Part shown: piece after piece, positions 8,602-58,992 of the stretch
Numbering within the stretch: the first letter of the stretch is position 1
How the letters are laid out: each line of letters opens with the position of its first letter
Assembly (NCBI RefSeq): GCF_025698545.1
Contig: NC_068576.1
Span: 56,270,094-56,334,093 of the forward strand
Source of the DNA: Gossypium raimondii
Taxonomy: Eukaryota > Streptophyta > Magnoliopsida > Malvales > Malvaceae
Direction: 5' to 3'
Length of the DNA stretch: 64,000 bases
The notes under the pieces: model-generated
The model's input: the letters and a program-made list of their open reading frames with translations, nothing else
The model's database searches: none
Told to the model about the DNA's origin: nothing
Position numbers and translations under genes: made by a program

Positions 8602-9117
8602 GGATAAATTACATTCAAGATCACGGAATTATTAGTAAATTTACGTTTTGGTTACTCAACTTTAAAAAGTTATAAATAGTCATTGTACTATTTGAAAGTT
8701 TTCATTTAAGTTACTTGATTGTTAAAATTTTTATGATATGACATTCTCTATTCAGACCACCTACATGGATTGAAAGTTCTCTTTATCCTTCTCTTCTATA
8801 GTTCAGATTTTTTTTGTGAAACAACTTTGAATGTTATGAATTTACAAACCAAAATGCAAATAACTTTCTTCTTTGATCTTCAACACTAAATGTCAGATCG
8901 ACTTAGATCTAAGGTATGTTCTACTTGGAGCTTAGTAGCCGAACTTTTTTTATTAAAAAAAACCTAGCAACCTAGTGACTCAATAAGAACTTTCAAATAA
9001 TTTAGCAACTTAAAAGAAAACTTATAAAATAGTCATTGAACTATTTGAAAGTTTTTGAAGTTAAGTGATCAGAACGTAAATTTACAAATAGTTTAGTGAC
9101 ATTGAATGTAGTTTAGC
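8602..9117. mobile_element. MITE with long terminal inverted repeats, GGGTAAATT family
   Basis: The left end reads 'ggataaattacattcaag' and continues to 'agtaaatttacgttttgg'. The right end is its inverse ('gaacgtaaatttacaaatag ... attgaatgtagttta'). The inside repeats the theme 'ctatttgaaagttt ... taagtcact' in both orientations, so the element can fold back on itself. It has no coding capacity. It is a diverged relative of the cleaner copy at 58508-58992. Exact edges are uncertain because poly-A flanks hide the target duplication. Confidence 0.65.
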
Positions 9118-10886: not shown

Positions 10887-12775
10887 ATGGCAGGGGGTGA
10901 TATAGAAAACAGAGGAGGAGGGGCAAAGAGTTACAGCAATAGCATTAATGATAGCAGCGGCGGCAGTTTCATATCATCATCTACTTACATGATAGACGAT
11001 ACAGAACCTCAATGGACATCATGGTTGGTGCCTGTCTTCCTGGTGGCTAACGTTGCTGTCTTTGTAGTTGTTATGTATGTCAATAATTGTCCTAAGCACA
11101 AGCTTGTAGGCAAGTGCGTTGCCAGGTTTCTTGGTCGTTTTTCTTTCGAGCCTTTGAGAGAGAATCCCCTGTTCGGTCCCTCTTCTTCCACGTAAATTCA
11201 CTTATTCCCTTTCTTTTTGCTTTGATTTTAGTTGGATTTAATTGTTGGAAAATGTTTTCTAGCTGTGTTTGAGCTCTGGGTTATGTTGATTTTGCTGGTT
11301 TATTTTAACCTTTAATTGCTTGAATGATAATTAATTAGTTGAAATTTGAAATTAATGTTCATGGAATTTGTTAATTTGATCATGTTCTTTCCTGATATTG
11401 ATGGCTATCCTAGCAATTTCATTAGCTTGAATATTGGTAAAAATATAATGGAGGCCCTAATTTTAAGAGTTAGATTGTATTTTCTTCCCTCTACTCAAAT
11501 ATGAGTAAATTGGTTAATATAAATTACATCAAAGAGGTTATTTCTGTTAAAATTTTTATCCATTTCTATTACTAAAAACCAATATAGTTGATAGAATAAT
11601 CAGACAATTACACTTGGCAGTTGGCACACCATGTTTATCTCATTCTAACATCCAGGACTAGTTTTTAACAATAGAAATTGATGAAATTCTTAATAGAAGG
11701 ACTAGTTTGCTCTTTCATCTAATATATTAATTTGTCCACTTTTTGAGTAAATGAGGTAAAATGCAATCAACTCTTAATACAAGGGCTTCCGTGTTACTTT
11801 TATCGCCTGAATATTTATTTTCATTATTTTTATAGATTGAAAAAACTAGGAGCTCTTGAATGGACCAAAGTTGTAATTAACCATCAAGGATGGAGGCTTA
11901 TAACATGTATTTGGTTACATGCCGGTGTTATTCATCTTCTAGCCAACATGCTAAGCCTCATCTTCATAGGAATACGCCTTGAACAACAGTTCGGTTTCGG
12001 TACGTATCATATTCTAACACATTGAACTAAGTTTCGATGGCAGATCATGTGATATTTTGTTGTTACAACTTCACAGTACGGATTGGAATCCTCTATCTTG
12101 TATCGGGATTCGGCGGAAGCGTGTTATCGTCTCTATTTATCCGTAACAACATCTCCGTCGGTGCCTCCGGTGCTCTTTTCGGGCTTCTTGGCGCAATGCT
12201 TTCCGAACTTATAACAAACTGGACCATTTACACAAACAAGGTCTAACATTATTTAACTGTTCTGCTTTCATTGATCATTTAATCTCATGCTAGACAGCTA
12301 GTGTTATTAATGGTCTTATTATATCCCACAGGCTTCAGCTTTGCTAACACTTGTGGTCATCATTGTGATTAACCTAGCAATAGGGATTTTTCCACACATC
12401 GATAATTTCACGCATATCGGCGGGTTTTTAACCGGATTTTTACTCGGGTTTATTCTACTACCTCGGCCTCAGTTAGGGTGGTTGGAACATGGGAACATCC
12501 CGGTCAGGACTGGTTTGAAATCGAAGTACAAGCCTCACCAATATGTCTTGTGGGTAGCTTCCATTGTGCTGTTGGTTGTAGGGTAAGTAACCCACCATTC
12601 ATACATAGGGACGAGTTGAATTGGTTTGGGTTGTTGACATAATTGCTAAATTTGCAGACTCGCCGTAGCATTGGTGGTGTTGTTTCGGGAAGAAGACGGA
12701 AACGAATATTGCACATGGTGTCACTACCTCAGCTGTGTCCCAACCTCTAGATGGGATTGCAATCAAAACAACTAG
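10887..12775 (+). CDS. RBL: Rhomboid-like intramembrane serine protease (RBL1/RBL2 type)
   Basis: Five exons join cleanly: 10887-11191, 11836-11999, 12077-12240, 12332-12582 and 12658-12775. All introns are GT-AG and the product is 333 residues. Rhomboids cut transmembrane segments of substrate proteins within the membrane; plant RBL1/2 types sit in the Golgi or endomembranes. The N-terminal ~50 residues are polar and Ser/Gly-rich, then comes the first membrane segment (about 53-71). Family marks are WR at 121-122, HxxxHxxxN (His130, His135, Asn139), the catalytic GASGALFG with Ser187, and the partner His239 in [10 protein letters not shown] Cys/Trp-rich tail ([15 protein letters not shown]) is typical of this subgroup. 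The start chosen is the first ATG giving the usual N-terminus; an upstream GTG frame is not needed. No defect is seen, so the gene looks functional. The substrate is unknown. Confidence 0.93.
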
Positions 12776-12955: not shown

Positions 12956-13387
12956 ATTTTGATTCAGTAATTTAGTCTCTCTCAAAAAAATCGAAGCAAT
13001 TTAATCCCTGCTAATTTTGAAGGTGAGCAACTAAGAACAATTAATTACGACGTTTATGTTTTTTGTTAATTTTACATAATTTGATTGGTATAATAACAAA
13101 TTTAGCTCTAATAATTTACAAATTCTATCAATTTGCTCATGATTTAACAAATTTAGCTTACAATATTTTTGTAAATACGTGAATGTTGAGGCTAAATTTG
13201 TTAATTTTTTAGAATCAAGATCAAATTAACTAAATATGTAAACATCAAGGGCTAAATTTGCTATTATACCAATCAAAATTATGCTTAATTGATGAAAGAT
13301 ATTAACTTAATTGCTCACTTTTAAAATTGACATAAATTAAATTACTTCGATTTTTTTAAAAGGGACTAATTTACTTATTTCCGAATC
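12956..13387. mobile_element. Foldback (long inverted repeat) MITE
   Basis: Two arms of about 140-150 bp (12956-13108 and 13247-13387) are inverse copies of one another; for example 'tgattggtataataacaaa' is matched by 'tgctattataccaatca'. A smaller inverted pair lies between them (aacaaatttagct / aggctaaatttgtt). It has no coding capacity and sits in the 3' flank of the rhomboid gene. Target duplications were not identified with confidence. Confidence 0.65.
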
Positions 13388-21160: not shown

Positions 21161-24100
21161 CCACGTTTTAAGTCAGCACTCATAACCACGGAAACATTAA
21201 ATGACATTAATAATAACTTTTTTTGAAGGACTTTAGAGAAATAATAATAATAATCAAGTGTCAAAAATAAGTTTTAGTAATTACCTTAATAGTCATCAAC
21301 ATATTTTAGCATGCAAACATATTAAGTGTCCACTTTGTATTTAAACTTGATCAATTTTACGAAAAGCAAGATAAAGTTAACTTTATGAATCACAATTATT
21401 TTACTCTAATAAAAATAAAACAAAGGAGATGGCATCAATTATGAAAAATTCGTAATTTTCTCGAAAACAATAATCATGCTTGTAGATCAAACAAGAGACA
21501 ATTCTTGGTAAAATCTTGGGCATGAAAAGAGGCGGAGATTCCAAAAAATAAATATGGACAAAATAAAGCCTCAAGCGAAACACCACCAAAAATAATCACA
21601 AAGAATGAAGAACAATAACCAAAATCACAGCAGAAAATGATAGTAATAACGAAGAGTACCTCCCCCCTACTGAAAGCACATTGTCCTCAATGTGGACGAA
21701 AAGAAATAAATAGGTAGAAAAGTTTAGAAAAACTCCCCATGTGATCACAAATGATGGCAATGAGCTTGGTCAGTTGCTGGCCAAAGGTTTCAAGTCAGGC
21801 CTTAATGCGCTTTAAGTGTTGCTTAACGATTTGCTTCATTTTTTTTCTAAGCAAAAGAAGAAAAATTGATTAATATCCAAATAAGTAATAAATAATAAAA
21901 TAAAGTAATAAATAAAGTAAAGAAAAAAAATAATAATAATAATAAATAAAATAAAAATTGGGTTGCCTCCCAACAAGCGCTTGTTTAACGTCGTTAGCTC
22001 GACGCCGTTATTGGTTCTATGGTGGTTCCAACTAGATTTTCTTAACCGTGTGGGCTTGAAAATTCTCATAAAATGGCTTCAACCGCTGGCCATTGACTAC
22101 TAACCGCTTTCCAGATTCTTCACTCTCTATTTCAATCGCTCCATGTGTGAACACTTTAGTAACAATAAAATGTCCTTGCCATCGTGATCGAAGCTTACTC
22201 GAGAATAACTTTAACACGGAGTTATAAAGTAAAATTTTTTGTCCTACCGAAAAATGCTTCTGAGCTATTCTCTTATCGTGAAACAACTTTGTATTGTCTT
22301 TATAAATGCGAGCATTCTCGTAGGCATCATTGCGAATTTCTTTTAACTCTTGAATGTCTAATTTCCTTACCTTTCCTGTGGGTTCTAACTCCAACTCTGG
22401 TTCCTGTATAACAGAAGGTAACAGTTTAGTATTTGGAGATAATAACTCATTAACAAATTCAATTTCATCAAGTTCGAATTATCTCCATAAATTGATGAAA
22501 ATTTTCTTCCACCAAAGAGTCAATTATATCGATCGATTTACGCTCAAGATTTCGCTTGGATGGCTAATGGCGTCAGAGACATTAAACTTTACGATCTCCC
22601 CATCAAACTCCATCGTGAGAGTTCCACTTGAACATCAATTTTAGTACTAGTTTGTACTAAGGAACGTCGACCCAAATAGAGATCTCAAGATCCGAGTGCT
22701 ATCCTCCTCCATTTTGATCACATAAAAGTCTGCAGGAAAATAAGCTCGTTAACTTTTACCGTAACATCCTCAAGGACTCCTTCGGATGCACAATGCACTG
22801 TCCGCCAATTGAATGATAACACTGTTTTGTCAAAAAAACCCGCGTTAAGTGATTCATAAATAGAATATGGCATTACATTTATAGAAGCCCCTAGATCACA
22901 CATAGCCTTCTTAATTCCTAGGTGGCCTATTTTGCATGGTATTGCAAACATGCCCCTATTCTTGCATTTTGCCGGCATTTTTCGTTGTAACATCTGGATA
23001 CATTCTCACCAACATTCACCCTTTCATTACCGTTAATTTTCGCTTGTTGGTGCAAAGCTCTTTAAGAAATTTAGCATACCGTGGTATTTGCTTGATGGCG
23101 TCCAACAGCGGAATATTGATCTCGACATTCCTAAATGTTTTAAGGATTTCCTTGTCCTCTTTACCTCTTCGACACTGGTTGAATCGTTCGGGAAATGGAG
23201 GTTGAATTTTAGGCAATGGAGGCTTGGTCGGACTGTTCGTCTTTCTTGGGTTTTCTGGGCAATTTCTTGGGCAAGATTCTTGTCGATGAATCGATTCCAG
23301 ACCTTTTCGCCAGTAACGTCACTGCATTTGCATTTTGTCTAGGGTTTGGTTCTGTTTGTGACGGCAGCTTCCCTTGAGAGTTTAATTTCTCGATCGATGT
23401 AGTCAACTCTCTGATAGACGCCTCGGTTTTCTGTTGGAAATCCTTCATCTCCTTTTGGAAATTAAGATTTTGCTGCTGAAAATCAAGAACATTAGCTGCT
23501 AACTTATTGACCATGGTTTCTAGAAAATTACCTGAACCTTGCGGCTGTTGCGGAAATCGATTTTGGTATGGCTGGTTATTTCGTAGGTTGGCCCCATAAC
23601 TTAAGTTAGGATGGTCCCTCCACCCTGGGTTGTAGGTATTAGCGTAGGGGTCGTACTGCCTTTGTGGTGGCCCAGGGAAATTTCCAACAGCATCCAGATG
23701 GGCCGTGGTATCATCATACAAACTGGGACATGCATCAGTTGTGTGATCAGGTGTAGCACATATTCCGCATAATCGAGCTGTCTTCGCTTTTTCTGCAATA
23801 AGAGAATTCATCATATTAGTAAGTCTATCAACTTTATCCTCTAAGGTTAAATTACTTAGCTGATGAACCCTTCTAGGGGGTTCAGTATTGGCTCGGAACT
23901 GTTGAGAATTTGCAGCCATCGTGGAGATCAAGTCTCTCGCTTGTTGGGGAGTCATGTTGACCAATGCTCCTCCACTAGCAGCGTCTACCATATTCATCTC
24001 CATGGGCTTCAAACCTTCGTAAAAGTATTGGAGGAGAGATTGCTCTGTTATACCATGTTGTGGACAGCTTGCACACAACTTTTTAAATCGCTCCCAATAA

Positions 24101-24838
24101 TCGTAAAGGGACTCGACTTCTTTTGTCTTATTCCAACGATCTCTCTTCTTAGCTCACCGCCGAGATCTTGGAAAAACACATTCGAAACAAACGAGATAGA
24201 TCACCCAAGTTGTAATAGATCCAGGGGGTAAATAAAATAACCATTCCTTAGCGGAATCTGCTAGGGAGAAAGGGAAAGCACGCAATTTAATCTGATCCTC
24301 AGTTACCCCCTGAGGTTTCATGCTAAGACAAACCATATGAAATTCTTTCAGATGCTTGTGGGGATTTTCATTTTGTAACCCACGAAAAGTTGGCAATAAT
24401 CGGATTAAACGACTTCAATTCAAAATCGGTATCCATAGTAGGATACGCGATGCATAATGGCGGTTGTTCATTGGAGCTTGACCGATTCTTAGAATCGTTT
24501 GAGCCATTGGATCGTGTGCTAAATTTGGGTTTTCGTTAACCCTAGCGTTAAGCACTTCTTCTGGTGAGTCGACTTCTACTTTTTCACTTTCAATTGTTTG
24601 AGTAGGGTTTTCGTTAACCCTAGACTCAGTTTCGTCGTCGACTTCTATTTGTGGCGGTGGGTTACTTTGAGTTCCAACCACCGCTGACTGATTTTTTCGT
24701 AACTTTGTCTCCTTGCGATTGGCTCTAGCAGTCTTTTCAATTTCTGAATCGAACGCAAGAGTACCTGGAGCAGATCTGGTTATAAGAAACAAAAAAACAA
24801 GATTAGTACGTTGCGGTCCCTCTAGCGGCGCCAAAATT

Positions 24839-32950: not shown

Positions 32951-35900
32951 CCTCTAACAATATTACTACCCTAAATTCTTTCTACACAGCCATTATTGCC
33001 TTTATGAAAGTTGTTTCACCGCATTGTTTATAATTTTACAAATGGATCTTTAAACCTTTGAAATTATTTCAATATTGGACCTTGGACATATAACAGTTCC
33101 GAATTGAATCTATTTAAAAATAAGATTTTTGTCTCATGGTTGCCTACTCTAATCCCCTTACGAAACTTTCGTTATTAGATTAGCCATACACTTCAAAATA
33201 AAAAAATTTATTATAGTATTGTTATTTAATGCTTGTAGTTGAAGCTCTCGAATCAACGGAGGGAAATTCAATTCAATTCGTTTGTTATAATCTAATTTGC
33301 AATGTTTTTTAAAACAGTTGTAGTTGAATCAATCAAGCTATTGGTTTTTAGATTTGATTAAAAATTTATTAAAATTTCAAAAATAAAAATAAAAATTCAG
33401 ATTCAACAACCAGTTCAATTAATATTTTAGTCGGTTCAATTAGTTCGTACCGTCTCCCAATCTAACCAGTTCAAAATCACTTTTCGGACTGATTTCCCAA
33501 CTGATTCTCGATTTGGCCGACTGATTCAATTTAGTTCAAACAACACTGCTAATATGTGTTTATATATAGAAAGTATTTGGTACATTGATAATGTACCTTT
33601 TTTTATTCCACAAACAGTCTTAAAAAAGTGTCATGTATCTCTTTTTTTAAAATATTTATTTTTTTAATATTTTACTATACTCTATGGGACAGTTGTCAAC
33701 CTCTAATTCTATTTGTGAAATCTAAAATTTTCACCCATAGTGTACCAAATATTATATATATATTAATTTTAGAAGTGAAATTAAAATTGTTATGTCTCAT
33801 CTATTTATTTTTAAATATTAATTAAAAAATGATAAACTGCAAATGAATCAAAGAATTTGCTGAGACAAAATGCAAAATGCATGCATGCATGTTTATTAAT
33901 TTGTTCATGGGGCTAAAAGAATCCACTACAATGAAATGATAGAGAAAAGGAGGATTCAATATCTTACATTGAAGTGACTAACTACAGCAACAATGCATGA
34001 ATTTGATTCTCTTCAACAAAAGAAATGTTGTTTTCATTTTTCCCCCTTTTAATTTAGAAAAATTTTACTTTTTGATCTTTATAAAATTTTGAGTTAATTT
34101 TAAAAATTATAAAAATATAAATTATTAAAATTGTGAAATTATATTTTATTCGAATCATTTAATATATATTTTTATAATCTCGAATATAATCAAAATTCAA
34201 CATAATCCGAATTTAATTTTTTAAAAATGACTTGGATAGCATTGCTGAGTCAGTGCCAGGTCAGGTATTAGTGATGAAGAATATGGTTTATGTGGATAAT
34301 ACCGTAAATTAAGAAGGAGTGGGGAAGGGCTAGGTCAGGGACCATCCCATGTCCTTTTCTTCCTTCTTTAATCTAATTTGGTGGGTTTTTTTAATAAAGA
34401 ATATTGTGATATGACAATGGTAAAGGATTAATTTTGAACATAAACTTTGTCGCTATTTTAAAAAATAATAATTAAATATTTAATTTTAAGCAGTGGGCAA
34501 CAATAATAGAAACAGATTGGTCCAAAAGAAAACATTCTGCTTTTCATTATTGCTCTTTGGTGACTAGAAATGAGAACGTGATACCTAATTACATTCATTC
34601 ATCCATGGCGGAACTGAGCTTTTCTTCTATTCCTTTCACACACACACACGCAGTTGTAGCTTAGACAAATTGTCAACCCATGTGAAATTTGTTTTATTTG
34701 TTTATTTATTTATTTATTTATAGAATCAATGTTTTTGGACTTTTAACTTTGCACCATTGATTAAAATATGATTTGATGAGGAGGACAGGGAATTACCAAT
34801 TTACCATCACTGACATTCTTATTAGAAGTTAAATTGTACTTTATTTTTTCTACATAAAAAATGGGTAAATTAATTCAAAGAGCAAACTGATCTTTTATGT
34901 TAAAATAAAATATCGTTCATTTGTATTGTTAAAATCTGACGTGGTTGATGGAACGAGGTTTGACTCCCTTCTATTACTTTTTTTTTGTTATTTTTTATCC
35001 GGTACAACTTTAATCACCATTTACAAGCATGATTTTGACAATTGATAGATGGATCCTACACATTTAAATGGTGATGATTATTGTATTGAAAAACCGTGGA
35101 TGAAAAAGTATCAAATAGGATCCCAATTTGACGAAATAATCAAACAATGATATTGGCGTGTCATGTATGCCTCATGCTAATGTATGGGAACCAGTTTTTA
35201 ATGGTAGAAATGGATGGAATTTTTAACAGAATGACCAATTTACTCTTTAATCTAACATTCAAAAACTAATTTATCTATTTTTTTTAATAGAGGAAACAAA
35301 ATACAATCCAACATTTCATCACACTTACAAATAATCATATTTAAACCCAAACCTTACCAAGAAAATGCGATTAGCAATTGATTATCATTTTTTAAAGTAG
35401 TATCATCATTAAAGAATAAGTGAACACATGGGTTATTTAAACAGGGAATTCATGTGCATAAGTCGAGCCAAATAATTAATGCTTTTAATTTCGATTTAGA
35501 AGATGGAAGAAAGGTTTTGTTTTATGATTGTGTCTTTTTATTAGTTAATTCAATTGCATCCTTCACAATGATATCTAAATTAAATCTTGTAGGGCCTGTT
35601 TTTTTGCTATTAATAATTAGGAAGGTATGCCGAAAGGTTGCCTACCTGCCGAAATACACTCACCGGCCATCCCCATGGCCAGCCAATCCCTCTTATTTCA
35701 CTTATTAATCATACATATAATATTTCATATTTTTAACATTTCAATTCAGTCCTCTATGTACTTGTCACATTGATGAGGTTTTGAATTAAATATATTAATT
35801 CACCTTATCAATCGATAATATAGTTTACCCTATGATTTGTGTATTAGTAATTTAAATAGAATTTGTTGAATTATGTATAGGCATTAGAATAAATTTAGTT

Positions 35901-37629: not shown

Positions 37630-37704
37630 AAACCCTTTCTCCATACCAAAAAAAAAAAAAATCTCCCGTTTGATCTTCTTCAAAGCTTTTTCCTTTTTTC
37701 TTTT

Positions 37705-39800
37705 ATGGGGGCTGGTGTTTCTTCTGATCTTGATGCTCAAAAGGGTACTGCAAATTTTCAATTAAAAACAGGTCTTAACGATGTCCCTGAAAGTTGCATA
37801 TCATCTATATTCATGTACTTAGATCCCCCAGAGATATGCAAATTAGCGAGACTTAACAAAGCATTTCGTGGAGCTTCGTTGGCTGATTTCGTATGGGAAA
37901 CCAAGCTGCCATCAAATTACAGGTATCTGGTTGAGAAAGTTCTTGGTCGAAACCCAGATTCTTTGTGCAAAAAAGAGACTTTTGCTAGACTTTGTAGCCC
38001 TAATCGTTTCGATGGTGGCAACAAGGTAGTCCTTTTTCTTTCTTTTTTTATTCTCTTTCTTGTTCATGCCATCACCGATAAAAAAAAAATGTAAAATGAG
38101 TTTTTTTTTTTTTTTTTGTTTCCGATTCTTAGGAAGTGTGGTTGGATAAAAACAGCGGTAAGCTTTGCTTGTCAGTATCGGCCAAAGCAATGAAAATAAC
38201 AGGGATTGATGATCGGAGATATTGGAATCACATTCCCACAGAAGAATCCAGGTAATAATACCATAATCATTTCTATCTTTTTCCTTCTTCTGTTTTTTAT
38301 ATCTCCTGAGGGTAGGTGTGTTTTTGGACCCTCCAACAAAATAAAAATATTGCACTCGGTTTATTCATGCTCACTCTTATTTCGGATTTTATCTCTTTTT
38401 TGAACTCACAAAGTTTAAGGCGAGTTTGAGGAATGTCTCACCACTAAAAAATGTGAACAATTCATTTTGATGGATTCGAACCCATACCTTTATATAATAC
38501 ATATTAGTGAATCACTGAATCCGAAACTGACCTCCCTCGACAACCTACCATATTGTATAGATTTGTTTTTTTAATTTAAAGCAATTCTATTTAGGATGTT
38601 CGTCATCAAGGGGTGTTGTCTATTTTGCCATGCCATTGTGATAAAAAGGGAATAAAGAAAACGACATTTCTAGTTTTCTGGATGGGAATCTAAAACAGAA
38701 AAAGAGATAAAAGCCATGTTTCCTTAATTTTATCTTTGAATTTTCTTTGGTTTACATTAATCTTAAAATTTTATATTTTTTTAGTTTAGTCCCTGAACTT
38801 CGATTTATGAAGTGGAATTTGAAGATTACGTGGCATCATCAACTGGAAATAAATAAAAAGAATTTATTAAAAAAATTCTAGGTGATGACATATTTTAGAA
38901 TATTACATCATCATATTTTAATTTTAATGAAATTTAAATTCAAAGATAAAATTAAGAAAAATTATCAAGTTTGATGAAAAAAAAGGGTTTTCGGACCAAA
39001 TTTTGAGACTAAATGTTGGCTTTTATCCCAAAGAAAAAATCTTCTGGATTTTCTGATCAACTTTTCCTTTCTGAGGGAAAACACTAATGTTTGCAACTTG
39101 CACTTGTGACCCTAAAAGAGACTAAAACCAAAAATATTATATTACATTGCAAAGTAGATGCCTCACCTAATGAAAGGTATGGATATATATTTTTATACAT
39201 CCCTAGAAGCTTGTAAAACTAACATTATCTAATTTTAGAAGCAAAAGTTAAGAGCTCCATTGTATATGAAAATTACACTTTCAATTTTTAATTCGCAACT
39301 TGTTTAATATCCTTACACATCATATAGATAAATATATAGTTAACATAGATATTAATTGTGTATCTGATATGTATATATATAGATTCGAGACAGTGGCATA
39401 TCTTCAACAAATTTGGTGGTTCGAAGTGGTTGGGGAATTGGAGTTCGAGTTTCCACCAGGATCATACAGTGTGTTCTTCAGGCTGCACTTAGGCAAACCC
39501 TCGAAACGATTCGGTCGACGAGTCTGCAATCTAGATCAAGTTCATGGTTGGAACACGAAGCCTGTAAGGTTCCAACTCTCAACATCAACCGGCCACCAAA
39601 TCTCGTCGGAATGTTATTTGTACGAACCTGGAAACTGGGTTCATTACCACGCGGGTGATTTCGTCATTGACGACTCGAATCCGACAACAAAAATCAAGTT
39701 TTCGATGATGCAAATCGATTGTACACATACAAAAGGAGGTCTTTGTGTAGATTCTGTATTCATATACCCTAGTGAGTTTAGGCAGATGAGATTTAAGTAA
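37705..39800 (+). CDS. PP2A13: F-box protein with PP2 (phloem lectin-like) domain, PP2-A13 type
   Basis: Three exons, 37705-38025, 38133-38251 and 39383-39800, join in frame (GT-AG introns of 107 and 1131 bp) to 285 residues. An F-box occupies about residues 24-70 ([24 protein letters not shown]...), which binds SKP1 in SCF ubiquitin ligases. The C-terminal two thirds is a phloem protein 2 domain: [22 protein letters not shown], the conserved [25 protein letters not shown] and [11 protein letters not shown]2 domains bind carbohydrate or act as the substrate-recognition side; the target is unknown. The N-terminus MGAGVSS carries a Gly2 and could be myristoylated, as in Arabidopsis relatives. 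The 1.1-kb second intron holds a SINE-like stretch. No lesion is seen. Confidence 0.92.
38410..38550 (-). mobile_element. SINE-like repeat in intron 2 of the F-box gene
   Basis: On the minus strand a B-box-like 'gggttcgaatcc' occurs near 38465-38476 with an upstream 'tatggtaggttgtcgagg' that could be a degraded A box. The stretch is non-coding and its edges are uncertain. Confidence 0.35.
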
Positions 39801-41439: not shown

Positions 41440-41647
41440 TGAAAATTTTACAATGAAAGAAACAAGGATCTTTTGTATGCTTTTTTAATGTTTTTTTTTA
41501 AAACAACCCATCAATGATTTCATGATCCAAAAGATGGACTAACTCACTTGTCTCTTCAAAATGTCAAATATTTGCTGGTGCCAAGTTTCTTTCATTTGAT
41601 AATTATTTATGGTGGGGAAGCAAAGGAAGCAAATTCCATTGTTTTAT

Positions 41648-43236
41648 GGGTAAACTATATAAATGGTGACCCAATTATGTTTGTGTTTCTGTTTTAGTTA
41701 TCTAATTTTAAATATTTTCAATTTAGGCACTAAAGTTTAAATTTGTTCCTATTTTGATCCCCACGAAAAGCTTTTTGTAAATGGTATGATAACACATTTA
41801 ATCCTCAATACTTACATATTTTATCAATTTGGTCCTACTACTAAATAATTCAACAAATTTAACTTTTCACGTTAATAAGTTCTATCAATTTTTTCCTTAA
41901 ACACATCTTCATCATAAATCGAAATTATAAAAATGACATCAAATTTAATTGGAAAATGTTTGTAAGGTGTCATTTTTGGGTGAGGAATTGCTTTTTTTTT
42001 TTTCAATTTCTTTAGCTGAGAAATTGGTAATCTCCTTCCTGCTGAAGCAAGTCGAGGAAATATTTTTTTTCATCAAATTGAAATTGAGACTAAACTTAAA
42101 ACAACCAAAGCACATCGAGAACAAAATATGGGTGTTCCAAAAGAAATAAAGGATAAGAGGTTCTTCAAGAACCTCTCAAAATTGATTAAGTACAACAAAA
42201 AAAAAAAAAACATTGTGCTTATTTATCCATTAAAAAAAATTAGAATGATAATACCCTTTCATTGCTCTTGGTGTTTTTTTTTTTATAGCAAGAAGACAGA
42301 TGATGATGATGTTGAACAAAAGGACCTTTTCTTTGGTATTCATTCAAGGTAATTTTGGAATGGTGAGACATTAAGTCCATAAATATGGATTAAGGAGGTG
42401 GTGGAGGAGTAAGTGGCTCTGACCTTTCTCGACAGAAAAACCCTTACATTCCACACCGCTCACCATATTCAGAGAAATCATAAGAACATTCTTCTTCTAT
42501 GTTTTTTTATGAAGGAATTGGTTTTGTGTTTGTTAGTGAAAATGTGAAGGATGTTCAAGGAATGTCCACACCCAAACGAGAAGCAAAAGTTGCAGTTGAG
42601 TAAGGAGTTGGGATTGGCATCGAGACAGATGATTAGGACCCAAATGAAGTGCTCTATCATCAGTGCAGTTATGGCCTATAGGGCTCATTATTTCATTCTC
42701 CTTTTATTCATACACTTTTTTGGTTATGATATTGATCAGGCACAACACGAAAGAGCTTATAATTGCACTCTTTTGATTTTGAAAAGGAATTTCCAGTAAT
42801 AATAATAATAAAGAAAAACAAATCAATTGAAAAAAAAATCCCCAATGCTCTTCAACAGGAAGGAGACTATCAATTTTCTCAACTCGAAAAAAAATTAAAA
42901 AAAGCAGTTCCTCACCCAAAAACAATGAGACCTTACCCTATTAAAATTTTTGTTGTTTTTATAATTTCTATTTGTGATGAAAATGTGCTTGAGGACTAAA
43001 TTAATAGAATTTACAGATGTGAAGGTTTAAATTATTGAATTATTTAGAATTAGGATCAAATTGATAGAATATGTAAGTAGTGATGACTAAATGTGTTATT
43101 ATACCATTCAATTTAACCGCAGGTGACCAAAACAGTAGCAAATTCAAACGTTAGTGCTTAAATTGAAAATTTTTAAAATTGAGTGACCAAAACAGAAATG
43201 CCGGCATAGTCGGGTGACCATTTGTAGAATTTACCC
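41648..43236 (+). mobile_element. Mutator-like foldback element carrying a captured HD-ZIP IV fragment (Pack-MULE)
   Basis: The 1589-bp element begins GGGTAAACTATATAAATGG and ends with the inverse ATTTGTAGAATTTACCC. It is flanked by the perfect 9-bp duplication TTGTTTTAT (41639-41647 and 43237-43245), the length expected of Mutator-like transposition. The two arms are inverse copies for roughly 450-550 bp: 'ttgggtgaggaattgc' on the left pairs with 'gcagttcctcacccaa' on the right, and 'ctccttcctgctgaag' with 'cttcaacaggaaggag'. No transposase frame is present, so it is non-autonomous. Between the arms lies a homeobox-type coding fragment (42551-42790). Elements that combine long inverted ends, a 9-bp duplication and host exon pieces are called Pack-MULEs. 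The ends and duplication are directly visible. Confidence 0.85.
42551..42790 (+). pseudogene. Captured fragment of an HD-ZIP class IV homeobox gene
   Basis: The frame reads MFKECPHPNEKQKLQLSKEL followed by GLASRQ, then MIRTQMK. This matches the homeodomain of GLABRA2/HDG proteins ([37 protein letters not shown]), except that the IKFWFQNR core of recognition helix 3 is missing. After an intron-like stretch ending 'gatattgatcag' (about 42740), the frame resumes with AQHERAYN, the start of the leucine-zipper/loop region (AQHERADN). The piece therefore keeps parts of two neighbouring exons and the intron between them, consistent with capture from genomic DNA and not mRNA. Without helix 3 it cannot bind DNA as a homeodomain. 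It lies inside the Pack-MULE and may be transcribed, but no promoter is obvious. Confidence 0.8.
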
Positions 43237-43245
43237 TTGTTTTAT

Positions 43246-46168: not shown

Positions 46169-49100
46169 TCATGCTTTCCAGCCATAACCAATATTATCGT
46201 CGAGTTCGTTGTTAAAAAACCCGTTGTCGAGGAACTCTTGAGCTATATCCGAAACTATATCGTCCTGCAAATGAAGAGTCTGAGACAAATCAGGTGCTCT
46301 GTGGTTGAATCCAGTGTTGCCACCTGCTGCTGAGGAATCACTGTTCGAAGCAGCTTTAAAACTGTTGCTTCGACTCGGAGCAGGCCCTGCTACACTTCCG
46401 GATACATTAGAGGTAGCTGCAGCTGGAGCAGCAGTGTTGTTACCGTATCCCATTCCATTTCTTCCCACACTAGCATTCCCATTCTGCCCACTCAGGGACT
46501 GCTGTTGCTGTTGAACTGCAGTATTGTTATTAGACATATCATGGTACAGCTGTTGCATCATTTGTTGTTGTAAAACCTGGTTACCCTGAGGCGACTGTGG
46601 ATGGTTCTTCTGCATTAAGTTACCACTAAGCTGTTGCTGCTGCTGCTGTGGTGTTGGTAACAGGGGACTCGATAAGCCACTAACAGGCAGACTCTGCATG
46701 GATCCCGGTAAAATGGCAGCAGGCCCTTGGAAGTTTGAAGATGGACTCTGGTTAGAACTATTGAAGGAAGAGGCTTCCTGATGAAGCGAGTTAGGGTTTG
46801 AATTCATAGAGTTCTGCCTACTAAGCAGATTCTGGTAGTTAGTAAGTGCCAAAGCAGCTTGTGCTGAACCACTTAAAGTTCCTCTACCGACCATGTGATG
46901 GTTGTTGCCTAACGGGTTGTTTATTCCCGGATGTAATGCCATTAGCTTATTCAGCGTATTCCTATCGGTTGGCAGACCCTGAACGTTTGCTAACTGCTCC
47001 ATTTCCTGCATTTTTTGCATTTGGAGCTTGGCTGCACTGGCATGTCGAGGATAGTTTTTCAAGCCATCTGCAAATGTGGTTTTTAAGCAAACAAAATTAT
47101 TATGTGCCTTAACTGAATACCACCCAATCAACAACAGAAGAAAGCTTGAAATTATTATATTCTTGAAAGCAATAAAAAATGAAAACATGCCACATTATAA
47201 TTGGAGTTAAAAGCAGTCGCATATAAAGTACAATTCCATGATTTTAACAAGTTGGTTTGATGAACAAAATAAAACTATCAACATGTTAGAGGTCAGTAAG
47301 GCAAATGCACAACTTACCAATTGCCCCAACCTTGTGTTCCCGACAAAAATCTATTAGATCTTTCATGCTACTTACAACCTCAGCGATCTATAACAAATTA
47401 TGCCAAACTGTAAGGAAACTCAAAAATGAATATTTATTTACTGAAATATAAATGCAAAAGGCTAAAACTTTACCTGCAAACATCTGACATATCTTTTCGA
47501 AAAACCCAAGTCATTCAATGACTGTGACTCCAAACTCTTCACAAGCTGCCGTCCAGCCGTCAGGACCCTGAGAGAAGTAGCCATGTAATCATGTTGAATC
47601 AGCAAAATTCTAACGAGCAATGACCAGTAATAGCAAAAGCACTCACTTAAACCTGAGTTAAACAGAACAAAAAAAAAAAAGAGGGAGGGGGGTTCAAGAC
47701 CGTCCAAAATAACTTTTTGGATGCCTCTGGCTAAATAGCACTCAAGGACGGCTACAATTTTAAAAGAAATCGTTTTTTGGAGCAAAGTATCTCTTGAAAT
47801 CTCAAGGGCTCTAACAAAAAGAATCTGGTAAGTGACTATGTGACATTATTCATCACAAAGAATAATTTATATTAGTAAAAAATCAACTCACATATTGCTG
47901 TTTGTTTGCAAGTCCTGCTGAGAAACCCCCTCAGATCCACCTTCAGATATTGTGCTCTGGCATTTCTGTGCAACCTGAAGTAACTGGTTTACCTACATAA
48001 TTTACGAGGTTCAAGTTGCATCAGATGTCCTTAAAGAACTTAAACAAATGAGCATATTATCAAATATGTTAAGCCAATATAGATTTTAGGAAGTGTTTTC
48101 TGAACAGAGGCAGAATACATAAACCTGGTACACATACTGAATGCAATTTTTGAGATTATAGGAATAAAATAAAGCAACAAAAACAATGTAAATCTTTGTC
48201 CTGATAAAGGTGAACGTCAAGTCAATAACATTATTTTGGGCTTTCTTGTTAGTATCCCTAATATTATCAACATATTCAGAGCAATATTAACGTCGTATTT
48301 GGATGTGAAGCGGCTAAAATAGAGTAGAGCAGAATGGAGTAAAGGGTTTAACCTACCTTGTTTGGATTCTTTTATCCCTAACCTATCTTATTTGAACTAA
48401 ATCCACCTCATTTTGGAAGTTACCTCAATCGGAAGGGTTTGTATTAGAGTACTCACAATCCTTTGAAAACTTATTTTAGTTACGGTTTATATACAACATA
48501 ATAGCACGTAAACCCCTCTAGCTTTCACTGCTCTACTCTACTCTCCATTCCCAAATAAGGTAGAGAAGGCTTGTTATCTCTACTCCTCTCACTTTTCACC
48601 TCATTTACTCCAAAATCTTTTACCTTCAGATCTCAAAGACGTTGCTAAAAAGTTCTAACTCCTCTGTTTCCATTTTATAGGATTTAATTACCATTAAATC
48701 TTTCAGGCTTCCTCCGCTAGTTCTTTGTCTCTCAATTTCCTTTGTTCCTCCCTAACTGTTTCTGCCTATTCTATCTCTTTCCCCTACTTCTTCTACTCAA
48801 CTTGGCATCAGTGTTGGGCAAATCCAAATAAAGAAAACAAGGTAGGAATAAAATAACATCACTTGCTGATTATTCAAGTAAAGATGTTCGCCATAGTAAC
48901 TGACTTTCAGTTGTCCTACTCATACAATTTCTCTTCTTTCTTTGAAAACTCAACTACAACTGTGTACTAATATAAAACAATAATTAACTCTAGTACTAAC
49001 ACGAGTCTGATATCTACAAAAAAAAAAAGAGAGAGAGAATCATCTTAAGGAACGTAAACCAAACAATTTGCATCGTTACATTTATCATAGAAATAAAATT

Positions 49101-51766
49101 ACATTTCTTACAAATGCAAGAGAAATAGCAAAGGAGTAATTGTGTATTTGCAGAGGAATCATCGATAATAAGTTAAAGCTAATAAGATGCAAGTTTTAGT
49201 ACCTGAGGTGCAACCAAACGACGCGGAAAAAGTTCTTCATGTCTACGTGCGCAGAACTCCCAAGATAATATCTGCAAAAGGAAAGTGCCAATAGGTTATT
49301 CCCTAAAATAACAGCAATAAAACTGCAAAATGTGAAAAAAAAAATTTCGTTAACCTTTAAATCCTGAGTGAATATGATGCGAAGCTGCCCCTCACGAACA
49401 ACACGAAGCTGCTCATATACACTCTCCTGAACTGCTTTTCCATATTCCAACATCATTATTCCAGAAGGGAATCTAATCTCACGGGGCATGTCCAAAAAGA
49501 GAAGCTCATCAACTACTCCACTACCAAATTTGATTTCATTAAGTCTGGGAAGTACTTCAAAAGTAGCTTCTGTAAATATAAGAGTATTTATTTAGGTCAG
49601 AATCAAATGATCGGATGCCAAGTAGCAAGAGTGATTATAAGTAACTTCTAAAGTAAAAACACAGATAGAAGCCGCAAGCATTGGCACATATCCTCTAACT
49701 AATAAAATAAGCATAAACAATGGAGTCCATAAATCCAGAGATGTTATGAATCGATACATATTAACTTCAAGTCATTGGTATACAATATATTGTCTGATTG
49801 AGAAAACAAAAAAAAAAATGAGAGAGCTTATTTGAGAAAAGTTTTAAGGAGGAAAAAGAATCAGAAAATCCATAACCCTAAAAATTCAAAGAAATTCCAT
49901 CTCTCTCATCTATCCAGTATGTCCATACATAGAGAAAGAGAAAATGATCTTCTATAATCACAGAAATGTGAATGAGTTAAAAATGAAAATGAAAATAAAG
50001 TAATGAATTTACTGCAGATAACATTCTATAAAAAAACACAAGATAGGGACCATCTTTTTTTCATAGCATATTTCTAAAATGTATTTCCTACCAAAGTCAA
50101 CTAAAAGAATAATCTTTACAACAAAGCAAATGCTCATAAATCTCTTACCGAACCCCCTTCCAGATTTAGACCCACAAATATCACAATGCCAGGCATCCTG
50201 AAATTTACATAAAGAAAGTCAGATACTACTTATTATAAGACAAGCATATTAATTACGAAGCCAAGTGAAGGATGATATTATTTATACAGAAGAATGCATG
50301 CAATTTTACCAAATCAGTGCAAACAACTTAGCAAAAGGCTTAAACTTCAAGATAGAAAGATAATTTTCATGTGTTAAAAACTAGAGGGAAGAAGCACAAA
50401 GACTAACCATAGCAGCTTGAGGGAAAACACCAAGTGCATGACTCCCGACATTATCATACAGTGACAAACACCATCTCTTCTTTGCACGAGGAGAATAATA
50501 CTCTGCAACGAATTTCCTCCAGTATGCAAAAGTATTGTCCTACAAAATCAAGAAGACAAAACAGGATTCAACAACTTTGAACCTCAAATTATCAAGTTGA
50601 AAATAGTTAATGTAAAAGTCGGTAACAACAAGATAACCAAGTATGCATCAGAGCATATAGTAGATTTTTACACAAAAGCAAAAACTTCATGAAGGCAGGA
50701 AGCTAATTGAGCATGCATAAGAGCACAGAACATATTTTCCCCAAAAAAAATGCAGGTTTAAGAGGAGTGGAGCTGTTAAATGAAAGCAATTAAAATTCAA
50801 GATACTTTGACACGAGAGGCAGTAAAAAAATAAACTCACAGGTGGCCTTTGCCGTTGGTGATATAGGTACTGCATTAGCCGGCGGGCACATACACCACCA
50901 TCAAAGGGGCGCCTCATTGCAGCTGCTTGCTGCATTCCTTGTTGTTGCAATTGCTGCCTCAACTGCATCTGCTGTTGTTGCTGCTGCTGCAAGTGTGCTC
51001 TCTGCAATGGTGGCATTGACTGCAAAAGCTGCTGCTGTTGCCTAAGTCTCTGTTGCTGGAACAAAGCTTGTAACTGGGGGCTTCGACCTTGCAACTGCAT
51101 GGAATCCTGTCTTTGCAGCAACTGTTGCAACACCTGCTGTTGCAGAAGGTCTTCTTGCTTGATGTCTAATCGGGGTTTCTTCTGCAGCTGAGATAGATTA
51201 CTAGGATCTTGCATGAAGGACCCTGGGACTCGGGGACCCATGGGAAGTGAAACTTGCCCAGTTTGTGATGCAGGCAAAGACGTAGCAGTAGAGGCCCCTT
51301 GCTGCAGCAGCTGACTCTGCTGCATTTGTTGGACACTTGTGTCTTGATGAGAGCCCTGCTGGCCTACAGACGATCCATCAACAACTGATGAACCTGACAT
51401 GCTTATATTGTTGGAAGAAAACGACATGGGCGATGCTGGTAATCGCATATATGAATCTGTATTAAAGCTAGCACTTCTCTGCAAGTGGGGACCTCCTGAC
51501 AATGCCGAATTTGCATCTGTGACCAAAGAACTTGCCCCAACACTAGGTCCTGAGTTTGCCACACTGTTCAACACCGCACTGTTCATATCCCCCGAAACCG
51601 GACCCAGATTAGGACGCCCAGTTCCAGGAATTGAATTAGATGAGTTCTCATAAGGTGAGCTCAAGCGAGAGTTAACTACAGCCTGGGACAGCCCATCTCC
51701 TTGGAAGAAAATTCCAGAACTCGAGGAAGATTGGGTTAAACCCCCAGCCACCCGAGAAGGTGCCAT
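46169..51766 (-). CDS. SLK2: SEUSS-LIKE (SLK) transcriptional co-regulator
   Basis: Nine coding exons: 51766-50840, 50539-50408, 50197-50149, 49569-49355, 49271-49203, 47992-47892, 47567-47474, 47387-47318 and 47067-46169. All phases agree and total 851 residues (Arabidopsis SLK2 is about 816). SLK proteins are adaptors related to animal LDB1/Chip. With LEUNIG they repress genes such as AGAMOUS in flower and embryo development, in the nucleus. The N-terminus has the SLK phrase SGIFFQGD, then a Ser-rich part (LVTDANSALSGGPHLQRSAS), KKPRLD, and long Gln-rich tracts at about 215-300. The LDB/SEUSS core covers roughly 300-560: ARRLMQYLYHQRQRPPD, FAYWRKFVAEYYSPRAKKRW, CDICGSKSGRGFEATFEVLPRLNEIK, GIMMLEYGKAVQESVYEQLR, SWEFCARRHEEL, NDLGFSKRYVRCLQIAEVV. 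The tail is again Gln/Asn-rich and ends GYGWKA. The first ATG after an in-frame stop was chosen. SLK2 versus SLK1 is uncertain. Confidence 0.94.
48290..48640. repeat. Possible MITE in an SLK intron
   Basis: Within the 1.2-kb intron (47993-49202), 'gtagagcagaatggagtaaa' on the left and 'tcactgctctactctactctcc' on the right are roughly inverse, with 'ccttgtttgg' and 'ccaaataagg' near the ends. The inverted repeats are imperfect and no target duplication was found. Confidence 0.35.
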
Positions 51767-51823
51767 TGGAGGCACCGCCCCCTGGTGGCCGGTGTCTAAA
51801 TAGCTATCCAGAGCCAGGCCTTT

Positions 51824-58507: not shown

Positions 58508-58992
58508 GGGTAAATTGCACCTAAAGTTACTAAGCTATTAATAAATTTATATTGACTACTCAATTTTTAAAAAATTATAAAATGGTGATCAAACTATTTG
58601 AAAGATTTCATTTAAGTCACATTACTGTTAAAATCGTTGATGTGTAGCCTTCTTTGTTCGCACCGCTTGAACCAATCAAAGTTTTTTTTTATAAAACAAT
58701 TTTGAATGTCATGAATCTACGAACTAAAATTTAAACAACGTTCCTCTTCAATCTCCAACATTGACTGTCAGATCAACATTGACTGTCGATGGATACTAAA
58801 CTACTATAATATTTGTCAAATAGTTGCTTGGAGTTCATTAACCTTACTTATTTTTAAAAAATAAACTTAACAATTAAGTAACTTAAATAAAAAAATTAAA
58901 TAGTTTAATAACTTAAATAGAAATTTTTAAATAGTTTAGTGACCTAAATATAAATTTATTATTAATTTAGTGCCTTTGAGTACAATTTACCC
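58508..58992. mobile_element. MITE with GGGTAAATTG termini and 8-bp target duplication
   Basis: This 485-bp element starts GGGTAAATTGCACC and ends with the inverse GTACAATTTACCC. It is flanked by TATATTTT on both sides (58500-58507 and 58993-59000). Long subterminal inverted repeats run inward ('taataaatttatatt' with 'aatataaatttattatt'-like sequence). It has no coding frame. An 8-bp duplication would fit hAT, while the GGGTAAATT ends resemble the 41648 MULE-type element; the superfamily is therefore open. It is the same family as 8602-9117, with partial copies near 59715-59880 and 60400-60500. Confidence 0.8.

Follow-up and report, generated by a model that had tools for sequence, protein, structure and literature searches.

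The segment at positions 41648-43236 of the 64,000-nucleotide stretch of DNA analysed here (the window) is very probably a decayed, non-autonomous Mutator-like element (MULE) of the Pack-MULE kind that carries a broken piece of an HD-ZIP IV gene, a homeobox gene of a class that controls the epidermis. This Mutator-type element is 1589 bp long and is flanked by the 9-bp target site duplication (TSD) TTGTTTTAT, whose left copy (41639-41647) and right copy (43237-43245) are equal at 9/9 positions and directly abut the two ends of the element. Both ends, when read inward, start with GGGTAAA (41648-41654 on the plus strand and 43230-43236 on the minus strand), and 20 of the terminal 24 bases match between them. 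Alignment of the two inverted arms to each other placed a left arm of about 425 nt, starting with GGGTAAACTATATAAATGGTGACCC, at 41648-42072 on the plus strand, and a right arm of about 409 nt, whose reverse complement starts with GGGTAAATTCTACAAATGGTCACCC, at 42828-43236 on the minus strand. Across this alignment, 333 columns were identical, 64 were mismatched and 40 contained gaps; its local score was 343, whereas 300 shuffled elements gave a mean of 24 and no more than 35. The duplication, the ends, the arms and the homeobox matches described below support the first-pass annotation, which had proposed a Pack-MULE with a captured HD-ZIP IV fragment, perfect 9-bp duplications and inverted GGGTAAA ends. 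The inverted arms that it had put at about 500 bp are present at the shorter lengths given here.

The whole window was scanned for 9-bp TSDs adjoining paired ends, with at least 17 of 24 end bases matching, the first three identical, and a spacing of 150-6000 bp. Two hits were obtained, namely this element and an AT-rich pair with TSD copies starting from 1705 and 7407, while the same scan gave no hits across 30 Markov-shuffled windows. The 8-bp and 10-bp versions of the scan, run without a shuffle control, gave one hit each, both elsewhere in the window. The word GGGTAAA was rejected as evidence when taken by itself, as its 12 matches in the window do not differ significantly from the 10.46 expected. 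A further pair of these words, at 34863-35830, was rejected as a sibling because it has no arms (the best local score was 23, for an alignment that begins internally) and the sequences flanking it are not matched.

The identity of the captured piece was supported by several matches, in which none of the HD-ZIP reference sequences was taken from a database record and the PDB and Pfam matches are independent of these references. With tblastn, the HDG11 query matched 42431-42772 (E 2e-11) and the HDG12 query matched 42551-42772 (E 8e-12). The best PDB match of the piece was the solved PDF2 (9lpe; E 8e-5), and the Pfam Homeodomain profile matched with an E value of 2.9e-4 and 21.0 bits, covering the profile no further than position 43 of 57. 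The best six-frame score of HDG12 was 120, compared with a maximum of 51 among 300 shuffled elements. Six class IV references scored 82-120, and the class III and class I/II-type references scored 51 and 45, not above the HDG12 shuffle maximum of 51. The first-pass annotation had placed the fragment at 42551-42790; the HD-ZIP IV match there stands, extending to 42772 by tblastn, and its start moves to 42431.

Along the piece, the tblastn matches to the HD-ZIP queries follow in the order HTAHHIQR, MFKECPHPNEKQKLQLSKELGLASRQ, RTQMK and AQHERAYNCTL. They fall into three exon pieces on the plus strand: the start of the homeodomain (HTAHHIQRN, 42452-42478), found with HDG11 in the alignment that runs from 42431; a second piece, MFKECPHPNEKQKLQLSKELGLASRQMIRTQMK (42551-42649), matched by PDF2 in PDB, by Pfam Homeodomain and by tblastn; and the start of the leucine zipper (AQHERAYNCTL, 42740-42772), found by tblastn and identical to HDG12 at 9 of 11 residues. 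Upstream of these, direct reading of the plus strand at 42385-42423 gave MD*GGGGGVSGSD, which may correspond to the start codon and Gly-rich N-terminus of the donor. The core of the recognition helix is absent, as had been claimed earlier: between RQ and RTQ there is only MI, compared with eight residues in the references, so that six residues have been lost in frame around 42629-42634 (...SRQMI------RTQMK). The truncation of the Pfam match is as predicted from this loss. The complete homeodomain of a functional HD-ZIP IV gene is thus not present, and no START domain was matched among the 10 open reading frames (ORFs) of the element that were scanned. In summary, the fragment shares with HD-ZIP IV genes of the HDG11/HDG12 clade, such as cotton GhHOX3, the homeodomain start, the region of the second helix and the first zipper residues, and it differs from them in having neither the recognition-helix core, nor intact splice sites, nor most of the zipper, nor the START domain.

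The donor was probably a member of the HDG11/12 branch rather than GLABRA2 (GL2), as judged from the comparison of the translated pieces. Over 50 aligned residues, a count that leaves out N, M and I beside gaps, the identities were 38 for HDG11, 38 for HDG12, 33 for ANL2, 31 for GL2, 31 for ATML1 and 26 for FWA. On this lower identity (31 compared with 38 of 50) GL2 was rejected as the donor; of the GLABRA2/HDG type first suggested for the homeodomain, the HD-ZIP IV assignment is upheld by PDF2, Pfam and tblastn, and the GLABRA2 part is not. The third piece, AQHERAYNCTL, is closer to what we take to be the HDG12 form, AQHERADNCAL, than to the ERHEN form presumed for GL2, ANL2 and ATML1. HDG11 and HDG12 have a short N-terminus, and the position of the possible start codon with its Gly-rich tail, which precedes the homeodomain piece by approximately 67 nt, would therefore suit this clade. 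The evidence for the clade is only moderate, since none of the class IV references came from a database record and the fragment is short. Within cotton, GhHOX3 was placed in the AtHDG11/12 clade by Shan et al. (PMC4263147).

The exon pieces are separated by two spacers that are probably retained donor introns, as suggested by gaps in the protein alignment and not by the donor sequence; one captured intron had been described in the first-pass annotation, and two are probable. The first, of about 70 nt with approximate edges (42479-42550, plus strand), has ATAAGA in place of the expected GT start, and an AG adjoins the next exon piece. The second, of 90 nt (42650-42739, plus strand), corresponds to a 30-residue gap in the protein alignment; its 3′ end is TGATCAG, and a clean GT is absent at the expected 5′ splice site. 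Because the introns seem to have been kept, capture probably took place at the level of DNA and not of mRNA. The possible N-terminus contains a stop at codon 3 and lies in a frame that differs from that of the homeodomain pieces. Together with the damaged splice sites and the loss of six residues, these features suggest that the captured copy has not been maintained. From 42551 to 42799, an uninterrupted ATG frame of 82 codons covers piece 2 together with probable intron 2 and piece 3, probably by chance. CpG depletion was rejected as a mark of transposon methylation: the observed/expected ratio was 0.40 for the element and 0.69 for the window, and the ratio does not discriminate because it was 0.34 for the large exon of the SEUSS-like gene described below.

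Pack-MULEs are described (PMC4858842) as having terminal inverted repeats (TIRs) of usually 100-500 bp, a TSD of usually 8-11 bp, no transposase fragment, and a fragment of a known parental protein. The arms of 425 and 409 nt and the TSD of 9 bp with 9/9 positions equal lie within these ranges, and the host protein fragment is indicated by PDF2, by Pfam Homeodomain (below its cut-off) and by tblastn with HDG11. Of 35 stop-to-stop ORFs with lengths of 28 aa or more, 10 were scanned, and none of these matched a transposase family at E values up to 1. Weak Pfam matches of the element ORFs to Cobl, Competence and L71 were all below cut-offs and were taken as chance. The element thus resembles Pack-MULEs in its long inverted arms, its 9-bp TSD, the absence of a transposase domain from the tested ORFs, and a fragment of a host gene that probably retains introns; it differs in that its arms are rather diverged (76% of columns) and its donor and sibling copies are putative. 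The exact pattern of the element ends had no match in viral_contigs, which is not a plant collection, and a search of the same collection with the fragment protein returned 19 pattern matches, none of them a confirmed relative; both results have little bearing on plants.

Several observations weigh against the interpretation as a Pack-MULE with an HDG11/12-type fragment. The agreement of the arms, 333 of 437 columns, is low for recent mobility, though the two TSD copies match perfectly. With Pfam, the Homeodomain match falls slightly short of the curated cut-off of 22.9 bits, and the segments 42073-42384 and 42773-42827 are without an assigned origin. The transposase scan covered 10 of the 35 ORFs; among the other 25, two of 59 and 55 aa each straddle an end of the element and exceed the shortest ORF scanned (50 aa). 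The clade assignment depends on 50 residues and on the references described above, which do not come from database records.

On the interpretation as a Pack-MULE, a MULE would have copied genomic DNA, introns included, from close to the 5′ end of a gene of the HD-ZIP IV family that most likely belonged to the HDG11/12 clade. The element would have been mobilised by transposase supplied in trans, and its insertion, with a PP2-type F-box gene on one side and a SEUSS-like gene on the other, would have produced the 9-bp duplication. Subsequent decay would have left it most likely inert, and the element is probably old. To its left, Pfam matched an F-box domain (37630-38094) and a PP2 domain (39270-39800), both on the plus strand, which were taken as one PP2-A-type gene. 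To its right, ORFs at 50381-50539 and 49196-49591 on the minus strand match LIM_bind, and glutamine-rich ORFs at 46169-47194 and 50687-51823 had no convincing Pfam match. We take the LIM_bind and glutamine-rich ORFs together to be a SEUSS-like gene.

Other inverted-repeat sequences were observed in the window, in which matches to the arms are partial only, the best being 84 nt at 76%. This segment lies within a 410-bp near-palindrome at 12966-13375, which is 68% identical in self-alignment and is probably a related miniature inverted-repeat transposable element (MITE); it resembles the element in its palindromic arms and the shared arm segment and differs in its length. A 485-bp inverted repeat at 58508-58992 bears GGGTAAATTG at its ends and is flanked by an 8-bp repeat, TATATTTT. 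It likewise has palindromic arms and GGGTAAA ends in common with the element and differs in its length, and it is related to another inverted-repeat element at 8635-9085 (69% over 276 aligned columns). No gene fragment was noticed by eye in 12966-13375 or 58508-58992, for which no library search was made. At 11545-11695, both strands gave a match to the Rfam MIR7502 precursor, scoring 82 and 76.3 bits; the region around this match, approximately 11438-11803, is self-complementary and may derive from a MITE. The MIR7502 family has been described in cotton (PMC5471329), and one title on it concerns peanut; the match points, indirectly, to Gossypium or a related plant as the source of the DNA. 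A retrotransposon gag ORF lies on the minus strand at 23209-24153 (Pfam Retrotrans_gag, E 1.5e-8), and an ORF at 22032-22478 on the same strand resembles the end of a polyprotein, with no Pfam match at E 0.01.

The palindromic elements of the window, in particular 12966-13375 with its arm segment, would be compatible with a homeobox pseudogene fragment that was already in place when the arms came to surround it, either through two independent insertions or by chance. A single 9-bp TSD that exactly adjoins both matching ends, of a kind that none of the 30 shuffled windows produced, argues against this sequence of events, and we consider it extremely improbable. We assign scarcely any probability to the proposal that the frame from 42551 is translated into a small truncated-homeodomain protein that interferes with HD-ZIP IV proteins. 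The 82-codon frame, the presence of the three exon pieces in one frame and the in-frame loss in the helix speak for such a protein. However, it would contain just the first leucine zipper residues and no START domain, and intron sequence would be read as protein; moreover, the tested interactions of GhHOX3 were mediated by a fragment with the zipper and START domain, and not by the homeodomain (PMC4263147).

When the entire element was folded as RNA, the predicted minimum-energy structure paired 343 of the 425 left-arm bases with the right arm; the longest arm helix is 29 bp counting G-U pairs, and exact inverted words extend to at most 15 nt. Within 42294-42775, the stretch with the captured piece, 0 of the 482 bases are paired to the arms. 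With the captured piece located in the loop, small interfering RNAs (siRNAs) from the hairpin would carry arm and not homeobox sequence, and they would be predicted to match other elements that share these arms. The earlier suggestion that small RNAs directed at the parent gene would come from the inverted arms is accordingly not supported in the form in which it was argued. Cross-talk through homeobox siRNAs could in principle arise from antisense transcription or from copying by RNA-dependent RNA polymerase (RDR).

The idea of small RNAs is reasonable in general, because in maize the donor genes of transposon captures show more siRNA, in work covered by the review PMC12030055. It is nevertheless very unlikely that small RNAs of this element, made from read-through or antisense transcripts, tune the parental HDG11/12-type gene, which in cotton would possibly be GhHOX3 or a paralogue. 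The helices that the arms can form and the placement of GhHOX3 in the AtHDG11/12 clade (PMC4263147) speak for such tuning. The hairpin itself delivers no homeobox siRNAs, however, and the exact inverted words reach no more than 15 nt; divergent TIRs have been proposed to be possibly unable to form siRNA-producing hairpins (PMC4858842). In addition, the piece is seemingly decayed and so may share little identity with its parent.

Taken together, the element is a clear instance, readable from the sequence, of a Mutator-like element that captured part of a gene, and it looks like a further example of a well-known kind. With more than 3000 Pack-MULEs reported in rice (PMC4858842), it is ordinary in itself. 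Among the matches listed for literature on Pack-MULEs, HD-ZIP and GhHOX3, no title concerned this element, which does not establish its absence from print. Added interest comes from the likely donor clade, HDG11/12, which includes the cotton fibre-elongation regulator GhHOX3 (PMC4263147). The element would be of greater importance only if the copy is transcribed and its small RNAs are common to the parent. If the DNA is from cotton, there is a very slim chance that the element holds a diverged copy of genomic DNA from the 5′ part of GhHOX3, or of the paralogue closest to it, and that the growth of fibres or trichomes is modulated by small RNAs or chromatin marks which copy and parent have in common; were this true, a comparison of accessions that have the copy with accessions that lack it would provide a natural test.
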